Below are positions 1 to 48,002 of a DNA stretch of 64,000 nt, one piece after another. The stretch is from NCBI RefSeq assembly GCF_021298855.1, contig NZ_JAJTHI010000022.1:1-64000 (forward strand), in the 5' to 3' direction. Each line of letters opens with the position of its first letter. Position 1 is the stretch's first letter. The stretch comes from Gemmatimonas sp. Its GTDB lineage: Bacteria; Gemmatimonadota; Gemmatimonadetes; Gemmatimonadales; Gemmatimonadaceae. Under the pieces are notes generated by a model. The model saw nothing but the letters and a program-made list of their open reading frames with translations. It was not told where the DNA came from and did no database searches. The translations under genes and the position numbers were made by a program.

Positions 1-165
1 AGACGGCGTCATGTGAGACGGCGTCATGTGAGACGGCGTCATGTGAGACGGCGTCATGTGAGACGGCGTCATGTGAGACGGCGTCAAGTGAGACGGCGTC
101 AAGTGAGACGGCGTCAAGTGAGACGGCGTCAGGTGAGACGGCGTCAGGTGGGACGGCGTCATGGA
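1..165. repeat. 15-bp tandem repeat array (11 units)
   Basis: Eleven head-to-tail 15-bp units of the form AGACGGCGTCATGTG start at base 1, so the array probably continues outside the window. The units differ mainly at position 12, and the variants sit in blocks: five T, three A, two G, then a diverged last unit. That pattern suggests local stepwise duplication. The last unit runs into the left arm of the inverted repeat that flanks the four-helix-bundle gene. There are no unique spacers, so it is not a CRISPR array. Confidence 0.95.
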
Positions 166-190
166 TGACGGCCGGACCGGTGACGGCGGG
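141..190. repeat. Left arm of 50-bp inverted repeat around the S23-type gene
   Basis: Bases 141-190 match the reverse complement of 707-756 at 47 of 50 positions by hand alignment. The arm begins inside the 15-bp tandem array and ends 87 bp before the start codon of the four-helix-bundle gene. A transcript across the region could fold into a stem of about 50 bp with the gene in its loop. Confidence 0.9.
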
Positions 191-277
191 GAGCCACGGA
201 AGACGGCCTGCGTTGTGGTGATGATGCGCGCGTAGGATGGATGACACCGGCCGGGAAGGGCGGGGCTATCGTGGTGC

Positions 278-676
278 ATGAGCGATCCACGAAACCTCAG
301 GGTGCTGGAAGCGGCGCTGTACTTTGCCGACGCCGTACACCAGCGCATCGACCGTCACGACTTCACGCGGGCGCCGCGCCTCCGGGCGCAACTGCTTCGT
401 GCCGTCGACTCGGTGCCGGCCAACATCGCCGAAGGGGCGCGTGGCACTCGCGCCCAGTTCGCCAATCACCTGCGTATTGCGCGCGGTTCGGCCGACGAGG
501 TGGGCGTGCATCTGCGCGTCGCGCGCCACGCCGGTGCCATTGCCGAGTCGGAGTACTGGCGCTGCGAGAACAAGCGCGTGCTCGTGTGCAAGATGCTCAC
601 CCGCTTTCTCCGCACACTGGATGAGGAAGAGGCGCATGCTCACCATCGTGAGCACATGCGACGGTCCCCGCCGTAA
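278..676 (+). CDS. Four-helix-bundle protein, S23 / 23S-rRNA-intervening-sequence family
   Basis: A 132-residue, Arg- and Ala-rich, almost entirely helical protein. It has the family hallmarks: an N-terminal helix ending near HDFTRAPRLRAQLLRA, the SVPANIAEGARG segment at about residues 46-57, and a C-terminal helix with the LTRFLRTL pattern. The family includes proteins encoded inside 23S rRNA intervening sequences and the Avd accessory protein of diversity-generating retroelements; both are basic bundles thought to bind nucleic acid. No rRNA or reverse transcriptase lies nearby, so this is a free-standing copy. The ATG at 278 gives the full family length; no strong ribosome binding site is visible. 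The stop codon lies in the first unit of a 10-bp tandem array, and inverted repeats flank the gene. The biological role is unknown. Confidence 0.88.
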   Translation: MSDPRNLRVLEAALYFADAVHQRIDRHDFTRAPRLRAQLLRAVDSVPANIAEGARGTRAQFANHLRIARGSADEVGVHLRVARHAGAIAESEYWRCENKRVLVCKMLTRFLRTLDEEEAHAHHREHMRRSPP

Positions 677-720
677 CCCGCCGTAACCCGCCGTACCCCG
701 CCGTAACCCGCCGTTACCGG
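671..720. repeat. 10-bp tandem repeat (5 units)
   Basis: Five units of CCGTAACCCG, with small variations, begin at the stop codon of the four-helix-bundle gene and lead into the right inverted-repeat arm. The TAA stop itself is part of the first unit. Confidence 0.9.
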
Positions 721-756
721 TCCGGCCGTCTTCCATGACGCCGTCCCACGTGACGC
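707..756. repeat. Right arm of 50-bp inverted repeat around the S23-type gene
   Basis: Reverse complement of 141-190 with three mismatches. Outward of it (about 739-772) lie roughly three degenerate inverted copies of the same 15-bp unit that forms the 1-165 array. The outer tandem arrays are therefore inverted relative to each other as well. Confidence 0.9.
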
Positions 757-770
757 CCTTCCCATGACGC

Positions 771-830
771 TGTTCCCGCCAGTCCCCGCCAGCCCCCGCC
801 AGTCCCCGCCAGTCCCCGCCAGTCCCTCCC
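771..830. repeat. 10-bp tandem repeat (6 units)
   Basis: Six 10-bp units of the type AGTCCCCGCC fill the gap between the inverted-repeat element and the stop codon of the DUF4175 gene at 831, ending exactly there. Confidence 0.85.
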
Positions 831-3800
831 CTACCGCTTCCGCTTCCCTCCCGCCAGCGCCCGGTAGTATTCCTCCACCATCTGCCGGTATTCCGCTGGC
901 GCCGTGGCTCGCGCCCCAACAGCCGGGCGCCCGTCGGCGCTTCCCGCGGCGGTGCGATACAGCGTGAACTCGAAGTCCTTGAGCCGGTCGAGCAGCGCCG
1001 TCTGCAGCTGCTCGAGCCCCTGCGGGTCCCCGAACGCCCCGGTGTTCTCCAGTTCTCGCATCGCCTGGATTGCGCGGTCGAGATCCTGTGTGTTCACCCC
1101 CTGCGCTGCCGCCTCGCGCCGCACCTCCTCGGCGGCCTGACGGCGCAGGCGGAACTCGCGCGCGAACTGCGTGGCCTCTCCGCGCGGTATCCCGCCACCA
1201 CTGCGCGGCGCGCCTGCAGCCATTCCACCCTGTCCCGGCTCGTCGCCCGGCATACCACCGCCGCGCGCGGCGCCCTGCGCTGCGCCACCACGGTTCCCGC
1301 CTTGCTGCCCCTGCTGCCCCTGCTGCCCCTGCTGCCCCTGTTGCCCCTGTTGCCCCTGCTGCCCCTGCTGCCCCTGCTGTCCCTGCTGCCCCTGCTGTCC
1401 CTGCTGCCCCGGTCGGCCCTGTGCCCGATCTGCCACCCGGTCACGCAGCGATTCCATGCCCGCCACGAGCTCGCGCGTTCGCTCGAGCGTGCGCTCCTGC
1501 CCACGCGCCGCGCTCTCGCCCTGCAGCGCGCCACGCGCGGCGCGAAGCCGCTCCGCCACATCGCGAATGTTCTCGCCAATCTGATTCTCGAACGCGCCCG
1601 CGTACTCGCCGCTGCCGCTGCGCGCGACCTGCTTGGAAAACTCGATCTTGTCGGCCAGTCGCGTATCACGAATGGCATCGGCCGCCCCGCTCAACTGACC
1701 GGCAGCCTTGGGCTGATCCCGACGCGCCGATCGTGACAGGCGATCGGCCTCGCTCTCGAGGCGACGGACCTCGTCCGCCAGCCGGTCCTTCTGCTGCGAC
1801 AGTTGCTGCAGGCGCTGCCCGCGTTCACTGGGTGAGGCCTCGGGCAACCCCTGAACCGCTTCCTGGATCTGCTGCTGCTCCTCCTCCAGCCGGCGCGCCT
1901 GGTCGGCCAACTGCTGCACGCCGCGTGAGGTACTCGAGGCCCGAGCCCCCTCCAGATTGCGCGCCGCGCGATTGAGCTCCTCGAGAGCGGCATTGCCCTG
2001 CGCCGCCGATCCGGTGGCGGCACGACGCATGTTGTCGGCCGCCTGCTGCAACTGTTCGGCCGCACGCTGCAGCTCCGGATTGCTCTGCTCGCGCGCCAGC
2101 CGCTCAAGACGGCGTGCTTCCTCCTCCGCCTGTCGCGCCAGCTCCCGCTGTGCGCCGCTTTGGCTGCTGTTGCCGTTCGCGCCGCCCGGTCGCGCGCCTC
2201 CGCTGGCGGAGCCGCCACTGGCACCGCCGGCCGCACCACCCGCGTCCGCCAACCGCTGCCGCATCGCCTCGGCCATGCGCTGCAACCGCTCGTTCTCCTG
2301 TTGCTGGCGGCTGGCGAGCTGTCGCAGCTTCTCGAGGGTCTCGTCGACCTGAGGCTGCGACGGATCCGCCGCGCGCTGCTGCTGCATGGTTTCGTACTGA
2401 TTGCGCTGCTTGTCGTTCTCCAGTTCGAAGAGGTCGGCCAGATCTTCGGCACGCTGCTGTCCACCGCCGCCGCCGCCACCCCCCCCGCCGCCGCCCCCCA
2501 TCTGGACCTGCACATCGCGATAGAGCGCCTCAGCGCGTTGCAGGCGCTGCAGCGCGCGCTGCTCCGGCGGCAGCGCGCCATTGCCGCGCACACGCCCGAG
2601 CTGCTCCTCGGCGGCCTTGAGTTCCACCGCGGCCTGCTGCAGTTCCCCGCGAATCTTCGCGAAGGTCGTGTCCTGCGCGGCCACGCCGCGCTCGGCCAGG
2701 CGCTTCACCAGCTGCTCCACATCCTCGCGCAAGCGCCCTTCGGCAATGGCCAGCGTCGTCATGTTCTCGCGGCGCACCTTGTCAGTGGTGCTCGCGCTGT
2801 CGCGCAGCCAGTTGAAGGTGCCGGCCACCACGTCCCGCTGGCGCGCCACGAATCCATCGGGTGAATCGCCCTGGGGCTGTCCGGCACCGCCTGGCTGCGG
2901 TGACTGCGCGCGCTGGTCCGACTGTCGGTAGTCCTTGCCGAAGGGACGCACCTCCAGGAAGTACACATCGCTGCTCCCCACCAGCCCGGCGCCGTCCCGG
3001 GCCACCGCGTGGTACGCCACCAGATCGCCAGGCTGCAGCGCGAGCTCCTCGAGGAACAGCGTGTGGGCGCCACGCGCATCCCGCGGGCGCCGTGTTCCCC
3101 CGGTCACCTGCACACGCCGTTCCTCGCCGCCGTTCACGCGGTAGCGAAGTTCCAATGCGGTCACACCCAGGTCATCGGTCGCCTGCAGGGCAATCGTGAC
3201 CTCATCCGTGTTCAGGACCTTGGTGTCGCGCCCCGGCTCCTCGATGCGCACCACGGGGGCGCGATCGGGGATCGCATCCACGACATACTCCACGGCGCCG
3301 GCCACGGTCGTGCCGTCGGTCGTGGTGAGGTCCACGTGATAGAAGCCACTCCGGCGTACCGTGAACGCGCCCACGAGGGTGCTGTCGCCTTCACGCGTCA
3401 TCGCCACCGTCCGTCCATCATCGAAGCGCAACGTGCCGCCACCCACCGTGCGGGTGACGCGCGCGCGAACGGTAACGGTCGTGCCCACCACCGCCGCGAC
3501 ATCGCCGGTGTCCTCGATCTTCTCCGGCGGCAGCCCGCTGTATGCCGGAAAGCGCAGGTCGAGCGACACACGCGACACGGCCGGCAGGTCGTTCACGGTC
3601 AGCGTAAAGACCGCCGATCGCACGTCGGCCGACTCCACGTAGTACTCGGTGCGCTGTACGATATCGAACAGGCGCGACCGGAACCGCGCCGAGTCGGCGT
3701 CGGACGCCATGGGCAGGCGTTGCCAGGCACCGGTGTCGTTGCCCGCACTATCGCTGCGGAACACGAGTTCGGCGCTCGAGGCCGCGAATCCCACCAGCCC

Positions 3801-4442
3801 CGCTTCCACCTCGATGGCGCCGCCGCGCGGCACACTCACGTTGCCGGGGGTAATGGCCAGCATGCGCACCGGCACGGCCGCCTGCGCCGTACCAAAGGGG
3901 ACGAAGAGCACGCGGGCGCCATCCCGCACCGCCTGCGGCCCCAGCCAGAGCAGCGCCGCCGCGACGGCAACGATACCGCCGAAGGACTGCATGGCGCGCA
4001 CGATGCGCGGACGCTCGAGCGCCATGCGGGACTCGAGTGGACGAATCGCTGCCACGGCCCGCTGCATCACGCGCGCCGACAGCGTGGGCGACGGACGCTG
4101 CGCTTCGGGGAGCTGCGCTTCCTGTACGGCGGCCAGCAGGGCCTGGCGCAACGACGGCTCGCGCTCTTCGACGTACAGTGCGAATCGTTCATCCGACGCG
4201 CGCCGCAGCAACGGCACGATCAGGCCGCGCACCAGCGCGACCGCGATCAGCAGGTAGCCCACCGCGCGCGCAATGGCCGGTCCCGTCTCATTGCCGGCAA
4301 AGAGCCGCAGCAGCCCCCATGCCGACACCACGGCAAGAAGCGTGGCGACCGCGAGCCACACCAGCGATTCGCACAGCACACGCAGGCGCCACTGCCTCCG
4401 CAGCGCGTGGAGTGTCACGAGCAACTGCCGGTCGGGACTCAT
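831..4442 (-). CDS. DUF4175 family membrane protein with long coiled-coil/low-complexity tail
   Basis: About 1203 residues from ATG 4442, which is preceded by GGAG; the longer ORF start at 4583 would overlap the upstream gene. Two N-terminal membrane helices are followed by Ig-like beta-rich segments (about 180-500), then a long helical Q/E/R-rich region typical of coiled coils. Within the tail are a run of about 13 glycines, an 11-fold Gly-Gln-Gln repeat and a final helical segment ending in KRKR. DUF4175 proteins accompany MoxR/DUF58/VWA clusters; their biochemical function is not established. It is the last gene of an eight-gene minus-strand operon, 46 bp after the BatA-like gene, so a structural or scaffold role in the envelope is an inference from context. 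Confidence 0.88.
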   Translation of the reverse strand: MSPDRQLLVTLHALRRQWRLRVLCESLVWLAVATLLAVVSAWGLLRLFAGNETGPAIARAVGYLLIAVALVRGLIVPLLRRASDERFALYVEEREPSLRQALLAAVQEAQLPEAQRPSPTLSARVMQRAVAAIRPLESRMALERPRIVRAMQSFGGIVAVAAALLWLGPQAVRDGARVLFVPFGTAQAAVPVRMLAITPGNVSVPRGGAIEVEAGLVGFAASSAELVFRSDSAGNDTGAWQRLPMASDADSARFRSRLFDIVQRTEYYVESADVRSAVFTLTVNDLPAVSRVSLDLRFPAYSGLPPEKIEDTGDVAAVVGTTVTVRARVTRTVGGGTLRFDDGRTVAMTREGDSTLVGAFTVRRSGFYHVDLTTTDGTTVAGAVEYVVDAIPDRAPVVRIEEPGRDTKVLNTDEVTIALQATDDLGVTALELRYRVNGGEERRVQVTGGTRRPRDARGAHTLFLEELALQPGDLVAYHAVARDGAGLVGSSDVYFLEVRPFGKDYRQSDQRAQSPQPGGAGQPQGDSPDGFVARQRDVVAGTFNWLRDSASTTDKVRRENMTTLAIAEGRLREDVEQLVKRLAERGVAAQDTTFAKIRGELQQAAVELKAAEEQLGRVRGNGALPPEQRALQRLQRAEALYRDVQVQMGGGGGGGGGGGGGQQRAEDLADLFELENDKQRNQYETMQQQRAADPSQPQVDETLEKLRQLASRQQQENERLQRMAEAMRQRLADAGGAAGGASGGSASGGARPGGANGNSSQSGAQRELARQAEEEARRLERLAREQSNPELQRAAEQLQQAADNMRRAATGSAAQGNAALEELNRAARNLEGARASSTSRGVQQLADQARRLEEEQQQIQEAVQGLPEASPSERGQRLQQLSQQKDRLADEVRRLESEADRLSRSARRDQPKAAGQLSGAADAIRDTRLADKIEFSKQVARSGSGEYAGAFENQIGENIRDVAERLRAARGALQGESAARGQERTLERTRELVAGMESLRDRVADRAQGRPGQQGQQGQQGQQGQQGQQGQQGQQGQQGQQGQQGQQGGNRGGAAQGAARGGGMPGDEPGQGGMAAGAPRSGGGIPRGEATQFAREFRLRRQAAEEVRREAAAQGVNTQDLDRAIQAMRELENTGAFGDPQGLEQLQTALLDRLKDFEFTLYRTAAGSADGRPAVGARATAPAEYRQMVEEYYRALAGGKRKR
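1301..1410 (-). repeat. 9-bp coding repeat (Gly-Gln-Gln tract)
   Basis: About twelve 9-bp units (CTGCTGCCC on the plus strand) inside the DUF4175 gene encode a Gly-Gln-Gln tract. Units are nearly identical at DNA level, so the tract could change copy number by slippage without breaking the frame. Confidence 0.9.
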
Positions 4443-4488
4443 AGGGGCTGCTCCGGAATGGGTGTCGCGGCGTGCGTTGGCTGGGCAA

Positions 4489-6549
4489 TCACGTGGTGCG
4501 CTCCGCACCTGAGCGTGTCGACGGCTGCGCGACCACCCGTCGCGCCGTGCCGCGCCGGCCGCGCGTGGCCAGCACCGTTTCAAGCGTCAAGGCCAGCAGG
4601 GCCAGCAGCAGCAGCACGCGCCAGGGTGACTGCCGCCGCTCCAGTTCCTGGTCGGTCTGCGGACCGGCGCTGCGTTGCGCCGCGCTGTCCGAGGCTGCGG
4701 TGGCACCGCCCGCCTGCACACCAAGCAGGAGTTCGGCCGAGTCCATGGGCGTGAGCACCGATTCCGATGTCGGCACATTCACGGCCAGCAGCGCCGCCGG
4801 TTCTCCGCCCACCCGATTGGCAAACGCGCGATAAACACCGGCATCGGCCACTGGCACGGCCGCACCCAGCGAGTCGGCCGTTGGGCGGAGCAACGTACCG
4901 TCTGGTGACTCGACCACCGGGGCCGCGAGTGTGCCGGGGAGCGCCCACCGGTCTCCCGTGCCACGCCAGAGTGGCGCAGCATCGCGGCCGGACGCGTGCA
5001 GCACGAGCTGTCGCACGAACGGCAAGTAGGCGGGCTGGAGCGGGAAATCGCCGGCGGTGTTGTCGAGCGGCAGGGCGAGCAGCAGGAGACGGCCGTTGCC
5101 GACCCGCCGTTCGAGGATGGCCGGCAGGCCGTCATCGAACCGCGCGAGCACATCGGCGTCCGGTTCCGCGTCGAGTCGGGCATAGCGGAACATCCGCACC
5201 GCACCAAGCGCATCGGCATTCTCGCGGAAGGGAGCGAAGAGCGGATGTTCCGTGCGCAGGTCGCGCAGCGTTCCCCCGCGGTCGGACAGGCGATCGGCCG
5301 TGCCGGCCAACGAGGCCGGGAGGAGCGGTGACACCGACCCGCGACGCTCGGCCAGCCGACGTCCGACCACCACGATCGCGCCTCCGCCCTCCTCCAGCCA
5401 CGGTGTGAGCGTGGCATCGGGGAGCATATCCCAGAAGACGCGCACCGCGGCCGGTCGCGCGGTGCCGCCGGGCATCCCGCCGGGGCGCGACACCAGCACC
5501 GACGGCGCGCGGCCAATGCCCAGCGCGCGCTCGAAGTACAGCGTTTCGCCACTACCCGACAGTTGCACCACCAGATCGTCATCACGCGGTACGACCGCGA
5601 CGAGCGTGTCGTCGGCCGCGAGCGCATCGGGGCTCATGGCCACCTGTACGGCAACCGCGCCGTCCGGTGCGGGCACGGGATCGAACGTCACCACCGTTTC
5701 ACCGCCCGCACTCACCTGGACCGTGCGCGTGGCGGCATCACGCCCGTTGATCACGAGGTGCACGGTGCGCTCCACGGGCGCGTCGCCGCCATGGCGGCGC
5801 ACCCGCGCCTTGACCGCCAGCACCGTGCGGGCCTCCTGCACGACGCGGCGTGCGTCGAGGGCATGTACCGTGGCGTTCTCCCACGATGCCGGCCCCACGG
5901 GGATGCCGCGCACCATCACGCCCGCGGGCAGCTCCACTCCCGCCACGCCGATCGCCCCGGCCCGCTGCAGGTCGGAAACCACCAGGATCTCCGCGGCCGC
6001 GAAGGGGGCGTCGAGCAACAGCTGGCGCGCCGTACGCAACGCCGGTGCCAGCCGCGTGCCGCGACGGCGCGGCGACAGCCCGTTGAGCGACGCCAGCACC
6101 GCTGCCCGGTCCGTGGTGAGTCGCTGCCGGGTTTCCGCCTGGTCGTCGTAGGTCACCACCGCGATGCGATCACCGGCGTCCAGCCGCCCCACCACGGCGC
6201 GGACCGAGTCGAGTGCACGGGCCCAGGTGCCCTCGTACCCCATGCTCTGCGACCGGTCCAGGAGCAGCACCACGGCCCGCGAACGCGAGTCGGTCCCTGC
6301 GGCGCCCCGCGCGCGGAAGAGCGGGCGCGAGAACGCGAAGACGAGCAGCGTGAGCAGCAGCAGCCGGAGCAGCAGCAGCGGCCAATCGCTGACCCGCTGC
6401 CGTTGCTCCGTGCGGATGGTGATCTGCTCGAGAAACATGAGCGACGGGAATCGCTGCGGCCGGTCGCGATCACGGTGCCGCAAGTGCAGCACAAGCGGAA
6501 CGACCAGCGAGGCGAGGCCGGCGAGAAAGGCGGGAACGAGGAAGTTCAT
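4489..6549 (-). CDS. BatA/VWA-domain membrane protein with glutamine-amidotransferase-like segment
   Basis: 686 residues from ATG 6549 (MNFLVPAFLAGLASLVVP), the standard BatA N-terminus; the ORF-track start at 6603 runs into the upstream gene. Order: first membrane helix, a basic loop, second helix (about 55-80), a VWA domain with the MIDAS-type motif DRSQSM, a beta-rich region, a class I amidotransferase-like fold around GGGAIVVVGRRLAERR, and a final membrane helix near the C-terminus. The VWA domain probably binds a metal ion and partner proteins in the periplasm. It sits 10 bp after the DUF58 gene, and pairing with DUF58 and MoxR is standard for this family. Confidence 0.88.
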   Translation of the reverse strand: MNFLVPAFLAGLASLVVPLVLHLRHRDRDRPQRFPSLMFLEQITIRTEQRQRVSDWPLLLLRLLLLTLLVFAFSRPLFRARGAAGTDSRSRAVVLLLDRSQSMGYEGTWARALDSVRAVVGRLDAGDRIAVVTYDDQAETRQRLTTDRAAVLASLNGLSPRRRGTRLAPALRTARQLLLDAPFAAAEILVVSDLQRAGAIGVAGVELPAGVMVRGIPVGPASWENATVHALDARRVVQEARTVLAVKARVRRHGGDAPVERTVHLVINGRDAATRTVQVSAGGETVVTFDPVPAPDGAVAVQVAMSPDALAADDTLVAVVPRDDDLVVQLSGSGETLYFERALGIGRAPSVLVSRPGGMPGGTARPAAVRVFWDMLPDATLTPWLEEGGGAIVVVGRRLAERRGSVSPLLPASLAGTADRLSDRGGTLRDLRTEHPLFAPFRENADALGAVRMFRYARLDAEPDADVLARFDDGLPAILERRVGNGRLLLLALPLDNTAGDFPLQPAYLPFVRQLVLHASGRDAAPLWRGTGDRWALPGTLAAPVVESPDGTLLRPTADSLGAAVPVADAGVYRAFANRVGGEPAALLAVNVPTSESVLTPMDSAELLLGVQAGGATAASDSAAQRSAGPQTDQELERRQSPWRVLLLLALLALTLETVLATRGRRGTARRVVAQPSTRSGAERTT

Positions 6550-6559
6550 CGCCGTCTGC

Positions 6560-7459
6560 TCATCGCACGCGGCCGCGCGAGAGCCGCGCGTCGAGGTACG
6601 CATGCAGGGCCCGGTCGAGTGGCTCGCTCGTGTCGAGCCTCACGTAGTCGGCGCCTGCCGCGGCCAGGCGGGTCTGCAGCGCCGCATGATGCGCCGTGAC
6701 CAGTGCCTGGTACTGCTCGCGCAGCACGCGGGGCTTGAGCGGCAGCAGGGCGCCACTCTCCGCATCCTCGAAGGTCGTATCGTCGTCGCCTGGCAGGTCG
6801 CGTTCCGCCGGGTCGACCACATGGAAGACGATGCAGTCGTGGCCGTGCATGCGCAGCGCATCCACGGCGCGACCAAGGGCCGCCGGCTGCTCATAGCAGT
6901 CGGTCACCAGCACGATGATCCCGGCCCGTTGCGACAGCAGGCCGATCTTGGCCAGCGACGCCACCAGCTGACTGGGGCCGCCCGCGGTCGTGGTGGCCAG
7001 CGTATGCAGGAGGCGCTGGAGATGCCGCACCGACGGCGGGATGACCTCCTCCAGCTCCTGCGTGAAGGTGGCCAACCCCACCCGGTCTCCCTGGCCCTGC
7101 GACAGCCACGCCAGACTCGCCACGAGCATGCGGGCGTACGCGAACTTGGTCACGGCACCGCTGCCGTACTGCATGCTCCCCGACGTGTCCACGGCAAAGA
7201 GCACACTGGCGTTGGTGTCCGCGTCGTACTCCTTGATGTAGAACCGGTCGGTGCGTCCGTACACGCGCCAGTCGATGCGCCGGAGATCATCGCCGGGCTG
7301 ATACGAGCGATGCTCGGCGAAGTCCAGTGACGAACCCTTGCGCAGGCTGCGATGCTGCCCGTGCATGAAGCCGTCCACGACGGTGCGCGCGAGCAGCGCG
7401 AGATCGGCGATCGTCGCGAGCAGCGCAGGGTCGAGGAATGCGGCGGGGGCGGCGGGCAC
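6560..7459 (-). CDS. DUF58 domain-containing protein
   Basis: About 299 residues. The DUF58 signature YQPGDDLRRIDWRVYGRTD is followed by a VWA-like core with DTSGSM. Proteins of this family are encoded next to MoxR ATPases and are thought to be their adaptors or substrates. The GTG at 7459 is chosen because it leaves a 10-bp gap after moxR. The track start at 7525 would overlap moxR by about 55 bp and adds a Cys/Pro-rich stretch that looks non-native. A strong ribosome binding site is not visible, so the start is uncertain. Confidence 0.88.
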   Translation of the reverse strand: MPAAPAAFLDPALLATIADLALLARTVVDGFMHGQHRSLRKGSSLDFAEHRSYQPGDDLRRIDWRVYGRTDRFYIKEYDADTNASVLFAVDTSGSMQYGSGAVTKFAYARMLVASLAWLSQGQGDRVGLATFTQELEEVIPPSVRHLQRLLHTLATTTAGGPSQLVASLAKIGLLSQRAGIIVLVTDCYEQPAALGRAVDALRMHGHDCIVFHVVDPAERDLPGDDDTTFEDAESGALLPLKPRVLREQYQALVTAHHAALQTRLAAAGADYVRLDTSEPLDRALHAYLDARLSRGRVR

Positions 7460-7469
7460 GGTGCTGGGC

Positions 7470-8498
7470 TCAGAGGGAGGAGCGGGGCACGGACACCGAG
7501 TCGAGCAGGCGCGCCACCATGGCATCGGTGGTGAACTTCTCCGACTGCGCCTGGAAATTCACGAGCACGCGGTGCCGCAGCACGGGACGGGCCAGCGCCT
7601 TCACATCGTCGAATCCGGCACTGGCGCGCCCCTGCAGCAACGCGCGGGCCTTGGCCCCGAGGACCAGGGCCTGCGCCGCGCGCACCGACGCGCCGTAGCT
7701 CACGTACTGCTTCACGTAGTCGGGGGCGCCGCCCTCGCTGGGACGCGTGCAGCGCACCAGCTTCACGGCATAGCGCGTGACCGCATCGGCAATGGGCAGC
7801 CGGCGTACCACCCGCTGGTAGGCGAGGATTTCTTCCTTGGAGACCACCGGGTGTACCGCGTCCGGCGGCAGTGCCGTGGTCGCCTTCACCACCGCCACCT
7901 CGTCTTCCTCCGGCAGGTAATCCAGCATGACCTCCAGCATGAACCGGTCGAGCTGCGCCTCCGGCAGGGGATAGGTGCCCTCGAGCTCGATGGGGTTCTG
8001 CGTGGCGAAGACGAAGAACGGCTTGTCGAGCTCGTAGGTGCGTCCCTGCACGGTGACGCGCCGTTCCTGCATGGCTTCCAGCAGTGCCGCCTGAGTCTTG
8101 GGTGGAGTGCGATTGATCTCGTCGGCGAGCAGCACGTTGGCGAACACCGGCCCGGGCATGAAGGCCAATCGGCGCTGTCCGGTGGCCGGGTCATCCTGGA
8201 TGACGTCGGTGCCGGTCACATCACTCGGCATGAGATCGGGCGTGAACTGGATGCGCGAGAACTTGAGGTCGAGCGCACGCGCCAGCGTGGAGATGAGCAG
8301 CGTCTTGGCCAGCCCAGGGACACCCACCAGCAGGCAGTTGCCGCCGGCAAACAGCGCCACGAGCGCCTGTTCCACCACGGCATCCTGCCCGACGATCACC
8401 TTGCGGAGTTCGCTGGCGATGCGCTGACCGGCACCCTGCAGACGGTCAGCGAGGGCGGCGTCGTCGAGGCGATCGAGTTCGGAAAGAGGGGCAGTCAC
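7470..8498 (-). CDS. MoxR family AAA+ ATPase
   Basis: 342 residues. Walker A GVPGLAKT, Walker B LLADEINR, and the sensor region around FVFATQNPIELEGTYPLPEA all match MoxR (AAA_3) ATPases, and a C-terminal lid domain follows. MoxR proteins act as chaperone-like ATPases that use VWA proteins as partners, for example in metal insertion or envelope protein maturation. The gene lies between the DUF4159 and DUF58 genes, 24 bp after the former, in the classic operon order. Confidence 0.95.
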   Translation of the reverse strand: MTAPLSELDRLDDAALADRLQGAGQRIASELRKVIVGQDAVVEQALVALFAGGNCLLVGVPGLAKTLLISTLARALDLKFSRIQFTPDLMPSDVTGTDVIQDDPATGQRRLAFMPGPVFANVLLADEINRTPPKTQAALLEAMQERRVTVQGRTYELDKPFFVFATQNPIELEGTYPLPEAQLDRFMLEVMLDYLPEEDEVAVVKATTALPPDAVHPVVSKEEILAYQRVVRRLPIADAVTRYAVKLVRCTRPSEGGAPDYVKQYVSYGASVRAAQALVLGAKARALLQGRASAGFDDVKALARPVLRHRVLVNFQAQSEKFTTDAMVARLLDSVSVPRSSL

Positions 8499-47591: not shown

Positions 47592-47676
47592 GCGGGGGAC
47601 CCACGCGCGATCGCCTACGCGCTGGCACGGACGCGCTGGCAGGGACGCACTGGCAACCACGCGTTGGCACGGACGC
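47592..47676. repeat. Left arm of 85-bp inverted repeat
   Basis: Pairs with the reverse complement of 47856-47940 at 67 of 85 positions by hand count. It consists largely of degenerate 14-bp units of the type GGACGCGCTGGCAG. No gene lies between the arms. Confidence 0.8.
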
Positions 47677-47749
47677 TGAGGGGACGCAGGCGCCCACGCG
47701 GGCCTGTACGCGGGGCAACGACGGGCGACGAGCCTTCGGCCGTCGCGGC

Positions 47750-47869
47750 GTTGGTGCCCGCGTTGGTGCCCGCGTTGGTGCCCGCGTTGGTGCCCACGTT
47801 GGTGCCCGCGTTGGTGCCCGCGTTGGTGTCGGCGTCGGTGTCGGCGTCGGTGCCCGCGTCGGTGCCAAC
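47750..47869. repeat. 12-bp tandem repeat array (about 10 units)
   Basis: About ten units of GTTGGTGCCCGC and close variants (GTCGGTGTCGGC) lie in the loop and start of the right arm of the 85-bp inverted repeat. The region 47588-48002 carries no supported gene. Confidence 0.9.
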
Positions 47870-47940
47870 GCGTCCCCGCCAACGCGTCCCCGCCAACGCG
47901 TCCCCGCCAACGCGTCCCCGATCGCGCGTAGTCCCCCCGC
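47856..47940. repeat. Right arm of 85-bp inverted repeat with 14-bp tandem units
   Basis: Four near-identical 14-bp units (GCCAACGCGTCCCC) followed by 13-bp units containing GCGTAGTCCCCCC, the latter continuing to about 47960. The arm is the inverted partner of 47592-47676. Confidence 0.85.
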
Positions 47941-48002
47941 GTAGTCCCCCCGCGTAGTCCTCCCCGCGCCCGAGAGGGCCTAGCGCCCCCCCTCCCCGCA
48001 CG

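Follow-up and report, generated by a model that had tools for sequence, protein, structure and literature searches.

The intervening sequence (IVS) of Coxiella burnetii, which RNase III cuts, carries an S23 open reading frame (ORF) between inverted repeats, with GACAGAT heptamers just before it (PMC4990558). IVSs have been proposed to be relics of mobile elements, and S23, a large protein family, has a function still under debate decades after the intervening sequences of rRNA were described (PMC4990558). RAYT/REPIN systems offer a second point of reference. Here, a RAYT (REP-associated Y1 transposase) gene is linked to dispersed hairpin repeats (PMC3116915). In the open-access literature, we found no paper that ties S23 genes to dispersed or inverted arrays. 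The locus described below combines elements of both systems: an S23 gene stands between inverted repeats at a free-standing site, and its repeats recur elsewhere in the genome.

The S23 element at the start of the window

The window is the whole stretch of DNA that was analysed, 64,000 nucleotides long and corresponding to positions 1-64,000 of contig C41. Its home genome (G000) comprises 4.09 Mb in 91 contigs. The S23 element occupies the first positions of the window, and a group of related arrays without an S23 gene lies further along. The features are as follows (arrays were identified with TRF).

about 1-172 (1-165), + strand: left 15-bp tandem array, unit AGACGGCGTCATGTG (TRF)
140-207, core 141-190, + strand: left inverted arm (arm alignment)
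208-277, + strand: leader, from left arm to start codon (inner gap in the arm alignment)
278-676, + strand: S23 gene (23S-rRNA-intervening-sequence-type four-helix bundle), 132 aa (ORF and profile matches)
667-718, + strand: 10-bp array CCCGCCGTAA, 5.2 copies, beginning at the 3' end of the ORF (TRF)
690-757, core 707-756, - strand: right inverted arm (arm alignment)
725-770/777, - strand: about three degenerate units of 15 bp, in the opposite orientation to the left array (TRF and arm alignment)
775-826, + strand: second 10-bp array CCCGCCAGTC, 5.2 copies (TRF)
831-4583, - strand: conserved neighbour gene, its 3' end towards the element, which serves as the site anchor in 24 genomes of the genus (ORF list and synteny)
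about 47595-47968 (47595-47912), no strand assigned: S23-less cluster of 12-14-bp arrays of the same arm family as the S23 element on C31

The left array comprises 11.5 copies of its unit (about 11 units) with 95% matches in TRF, and its G-rich strand reads inward. The two arms are 84% complementary over 68 nt, rising to 47 of 50 positions (94%) in the core. Their alignment scores 45.5, whereas 1000 dinucleotide shuffles average 10.2 and never exceed 18.5. The inverted copies and inverted 15-bp arrays reported in an initial annotation, made from the sequence alone, are therefore confirmed by alignment, shuffling and TRF; that annotation listed the arms, arrays and gene correctly and missed the two 10-bp arrays at 667-718 and 775-826. 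The inner gap of the alignment measures 87 nt, against a median of 75 over S23 elements. In G000, the S23 gene and the neighbour gene are convergent. Within the latter, a 9-bp coding repeat at 1303-1410 specifies a Gln-Gly-rich tract.

Position 1 is a contig end, and the same 15-bp array terminates contig C56. In three relatives (G005, G017 and G008), the gene from the C56 end comes directly after the neighbour gene. Because this gene order links the two contigs, C56 and C41 join through the array, and the left array is longer than the part visible in the window. An assembly artefact was considered, as the element starts at a contig end, and was rejected: the junction is backed by the gene order of the three relatives, and whole elements are present in G015 and other genomes.

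The protein encoded between the arms belongs to the S23 family, as initially annotated. It matches PF05635 with an E-value of 9e-20 (71.3 bits; cut-off 33.8) and TIGR02436 with an E-value of 6e-22 (77.9 bits; cut-off 24), and thus exceeds both curated cut-offs. Its AlphaFold2 model (pLDDT 92.8) is a four-helix bundle that matches 2gsc and 2rld, S23 proteins whose structures each contain five chains, and, less closely, Avd (4dwl, 8ub7). The predicted isoelectric point is 10.3, close to the median of 10.0 for 96 S23 proteins from related genomes. No catalytic motif was recognised in S23, whose residues Q38, N49, E52, S71 and E74 are invariant. Like an IVS of 23S rRNA, the window element has terminal inverted repeats around an S23 ORF. 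It does not lie inside 23S rRNA: the 64-kb window contains no match to any Rfam family and no tRNA, in agreement with the earlier statement that rRNA is absent from the locus.

S23 genes and inverted arrays in other genomes

The home genome holds nine S23 genes, each with its own distinct flanking repeat. Inverted arms were detected at six of the eight loci for which both flanks are available, with scores from 22.5 to 176; the ninth locus, on C6, is cut by a contig end. The S23 loci on C17 and C53 have no inverted arms by the flank-alignment test. The lowest of these scores, 22.5, belongs to the C58 locus (L075). At this locus, from C58:28682 onward, no stop separates the S23 frame from the next gene, so that S23, arm and next gene form one open frame; judging from its N-terminus, the next gene resembles that of the GTPase YchF. 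Among G000 control genes with intergenic DNA on both sides, none of 168 reaches an inverted-repeat score of 18.

The association extends well beyond a single genome. PF05635 is present in 37 of the 41 related genomes searched, in 1-12 copies each, and in none of 14 control genomes. When the 300-nt flanks of 94 distinct S23 genes from related genomes were compared, all of them genes with both flanks available, 65% had an inverted repeat scoring at least 20 (p 4e-32). The corresponding figures for controls were 1 of 462 same-locus window pairs taken elsewhere and 0.9% of mismatched flank pairs. For a broader sample, a scan of a genome collection with the window S23 protein alone yielded zero relatives, and a wider alignment had no conserved stretch of scannable length; the scan therefore used a three-sequence S23 alignment. 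Its named genomes represent Planctomycetota, Pseudomonadota, Bacteroidota, Chloroflexota, Acidobacteriota, Bacillota, Cyanobacteriota and others. In this many-phyla set, 57% of 77 S23 genes score at least 18, compared with 3 of 957 control pairs (0.3%; p 5e-31).

In the many-phyla set, most arms consist of repeated units of 7 or 8 nt, such as AGTTGACG, TTAGTGG, AGGGACT and TCAGGGG. Of 105 arms, 96 are G-rich when read inward (p 1.6e-19). Measured from the inner edge of the arm, the median distance to the gene is 75 nt on the start-codon side and 10 nt on the stop side. About a third of all S23 genes surveyed have no detectable inverted arms. Enclosure by inverted repeats is the rule for S23 genes in the searched relatives and is common in other phyla, a general habit that the initial annotation, having seen one locus, missed.

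The arms also occur without the gene. A search for S23-less copies covered 1.196 Mb of G000 (29% of the genome). Within it, each of the nine S23 loci has members of its arm family at sites that lack S23, in 2-12 places per family. For control genes, the median number of dispersed matches is 0 (p 5e-5), yet 45% of them have at least one. The arm family of the window recurs at S23-less sites on C30, C33, C58 and C70. The initial description of a free-standing, hairpin-shaped, repeated element is borne out by these recurrences and by the repeats that flank other S23 genes.

Several of the S23-less copies retain a definite structure. At C58:13077-13332, a copy of the window arm family still has its two arms, one on either side of a short spacer. 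Copies of the C6 arm family are about 180 nt long and consist of an outer stem with inner hairpins, and across eight copies compensatory changes occur at 13 of 60 predicted pairs. The S23 element whose arm family is matched by the arrays near position 47595 of the window lies at C31:226214-226585. Such gene-specific repeat families, dispersed as inverted pairs, are a defining trait of REPIN-RAYT systems. In the gammaproteobacterium Thiohalocapsa halophila, TTAGTGG heptamers that flank S23 are found at further places too, whereas a control pattern gave 0. The numbers of S23-less hairpins differ widely: 33 in 1.19 Mb of G000 (9 S23 genes), 2 in 0.4 Mb of G025 (12 S23 genes) and none in 0.4 Mb of the S23-free G031. 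The idea that the number of S23 genes sets array density was examined in these three genomes and set aside, the outcome being not clear-cut and revealing no simple relation.

Variation between relatives and competing explanations

Fifteen S23-less sites of G000 were compared with the relatives G015 and G042. Sites S1 and S4 (C41:96942 and C58:85345) hold a copy in G000 and none in G015, while S8 and S10 (C31:269565 and C33:22464) carry a copy in G000 and are empty in G042. No target-site duplications were noticed by eye in these occupied/empty alignments. Two C70 copies of the C6 repeat family (C70:36747 and C70:52718), about 16 kb apart, have exchanged flanks in G015, where their counterparts lie at G015:C1:270569-270684 and 286523-286594. 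This arrangement suggests that a chromosomal segment of about 16 kb is inverted in G015 and that both its ends lie in S23-less copies.

At seven of the nine G000 S23 sites, G015 also has an S23 gene, which indicates that S23 copies are mainly inherited in place. Values of dS between the S23 genes of the two genomes are 0.13-0.17 at C41, C70 and C31, 0.40 at C53, and 1.4-2.6 at C58, C7 and C17. Throughout these shared sites, dN/dS lies between 0.09 and 0.23, and the S23 protein is consequently under purifying selection. At the C58 site, the G015 flanks are 94% identical and enclose a different S23 (56% protein identity) in the opposite orientation, with other arms. The window element is likewise inverted in G015, its closest relative, where the flanks are 90% identical.

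At the window site, an S23 gene is found in seven species of the genus, in either orientation. The site anchor also matches genomes in which a different gene lies downstream and the repeat is absent; occupation of the site is thus not universal. Within each of the seven species the two arms match one another (scores of 25 to 97.5), and between species they hardly match, except between G000 and G015. Some between-species scores are high, for example 59 for G042 versus G000; since orientation differs, their probable source is sequence of the neighbour gene within the 300-nt flank, and they were not counted as arm similarity. The S23 subfamily of the window was found at three different sites. As judged from the aligned loci, elements are shown to be inverted or replaced in place, with both arms changing together. 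The initial annotation had named an outcome that would speak against it, namely arms unique to this locus and conserved in all relatives, with S23 genes elsewhere lacking repeats; what was found is the reverse, and orientation and arm sequence vary among relatives.

The explanation that we favour, with somewhat more confidence than doubt, is a selfish or commensal system of two parts that would resemble REPIN/RAYT and be kin to the rRNA IVS: S23 on the one hand, and on the other the DNA arms and dispersed arrays on which it would act in trans. The arms are inverted arrays of short, G-rich-inward repeats able to form a hairpin or cruciform. S23, a small basic protein of the S23/Avd fold, would act on them as hairpin or single strand, probably as a pentamer, and may promote their persistence, rearrangement and spread together with replication or repair enzymes of the host. 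The rRNA IVS could then be regarded as a special case, an S23 element seated in a 23S rRNA helix. We infer that the repeats owe their movement or maintenance to S23 itself. The earlier suggestion of a mobile or selfish cassette gains indirect support from the occupied and empty S23-less sites, in-place inversion and replacement; no transposition event, enzyme activity or insertion in progress was observed, and this counts against our explanation. So do the absence of any noticed target-site duplication or recognised catalytic motif, the inheritance in place of most S23 copies, the S23 genes without inverted arms (those on C17 and C53 among them), hairpin numbers that do not simply track S23 number, and the dispersed repeats near some control genes.

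The main rival puts the arrays first. Slippage and template switching at imperfect palindromes would make and match the arrays, and S23 would be passive, either tolerated or attracted. The arms are tandem arrays that evolve in concert and match at the DNA level, as slippage and palindrome correction predict, and S23-less arrays are common in G000. However, this account leaves unexplained why S23 genes in particular should be enclosed across phyla, when no control gene in G000 is (0/168), why the G-rich-inward polarity and leader geometry are constant, and why structured 180-nt S23-less copies carry compensatory changes. We regard it as unlikely, although it retains real weight. A lower probability attaches to an intervening sequence that operates at the transcript level, where the arms would pair in RNA, RNase III would excise the element from a host transcript, and S23 would bind or protect the RNA. 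The gene family and hairpin design are indeed shared with rRNA IVSs, of which that of Coxiella is cut by RNase III (PMC4990558), and the fold is also that of Avd, a component of a retroelement ribonucleoprotein (8ub7). Selection on transcript pairing, however, predicts G-U mismatches in excess over A-C, and the arms contain 180 G-U and 208 A-C mismatches, without any G-U preference. This speaks mildly against selection on RNA pairing, and binding of the protein to its own stem as RNA, one of the options initially raised, is not favoured. The element also lies outside rRNA and is convergent to its neighbour in G000. Given the lack of a G-U excess, the arms are most likely kept alike at the DNA level, whether through recombination, through template switching, through recent spread or through a DNA-acting protein.

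A mover of another kind, with S23 as its cargo, would be a Y1 (RAYT-type) transposase. G000 has a single Y1 (RAYT-like) gene, at C30:74525-74860, and it too is enclosed by inverted, G-rich-inward arrays, GGGGTCAGGGCT / AGCTCTGACCCC (C30:74186-75104; score 58.5), the contig ending inside the right array. G015 and G005 have one Y1 gene each. Nevertheless, GGGGTCAGGGCT matched no S23 arm in the part of the genome searched, and among the genomes without a Y1 gene over the cut-off, which also include G041, the four covered by the arm survey (G020, G042, G004 and G021) still have S23 genes with inverted arms. S23 arrays therefore do not need Y1, and with array sequences that differ as well, the transposase was largely rejected as the mover and is very improbable. 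The same low probability is given to an ordinary chromosomal gene whose flanking repeats are terminators or regulatory hairpins. Purifying selection (dN/dS 0.09-0.23) and the mostly constant sites of G000 and G015 would suit such a gene, but arms of up to about 200 nt that are locus-specific, dispersed, inverted and replaced do not behave as terminators.

If S23 moves or maintains repeats, as in the two-part system that we favour, it would form a repeat-partner system without any known transposase. The link between S23 and arrays gives the S23 family a probable substrate and offers one cause for bacterial heptamer arrays, a class of repeat otherwise without known cause. The rRNA IVS would become one case of a broader element, and the Avd fold would gain a nucleic-acid role outside retroelements. 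A more far-reaching proposal, which we put forward tentatively and hold to be somewhat short of probable, is that S23 drives a widespread, unrecognised class of repeat systems with a non-transposase protein at its centre. Each S23 would move or maintain its own array family and gene-less copies, and many heptamer arrays (perhaps including the short tandemly repeated repetitive heptamers, STRR, of cyanobacteria) and rRNA IVSs would belong to the class.

Comparison with known systems

DNA transposons and insertion sequences have a transposase between terminal inverted repeats, whereas S23 is the only convincing gene between the arms of the window element. The resemblance to REPIN/RAYT is closer. 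In both, one gene is flanked by its own inverted extragenic repeat family, a genome may hold several such gene-repeat pairs, and gene-less, hairpin-forming copies are dispersed between genes. In contrast to REPIN-RAYT, where the linked gene is a Y1/HUH transposase, the linked gene here is S23, and the Y1 gene is found at another locus between arrays of its own. S23 forms a four-helix bundle and is not an HUH/Y1 nuclease, and its arms are short tandem arrays.

With Avd of diversity-generating retroelements (4dwl, 8ub7), the window protein shares its fold, with TM of about 0.71 by query length and 0.78-0.85 by target length for the best matches. It differs from Avd in sequence (about 10% identity), and no reverse transcriptase or variable gene was noticed in the ORF list of positions 1-8000.

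The rRNA IVS shares with the S23 element a PF05635 protein, a single ORF, an inverted-repeat stem around this ORF and a scattered distribution, and in the Coxiella IVS, too, repeats adjoin the S23 ORF, there as heptamers. Unlike the rRNA IVS, the S23 element is free-standing and outside rRNA, its arms are locus-specific tandem arrays that recur without S23, and it bears no RNA wobble signature. Finally, cyanobacterial STRRs resemble the S23-associated repeats in being heptamer arrays between genes. To our knowledge, they have been described in the literature without S23. The S23 gene of Nostoc sp. CHAB 5715 (L249) nevertheless has TGGGGAG/CTCCCCA heptamers close by, which resemble STRR units.
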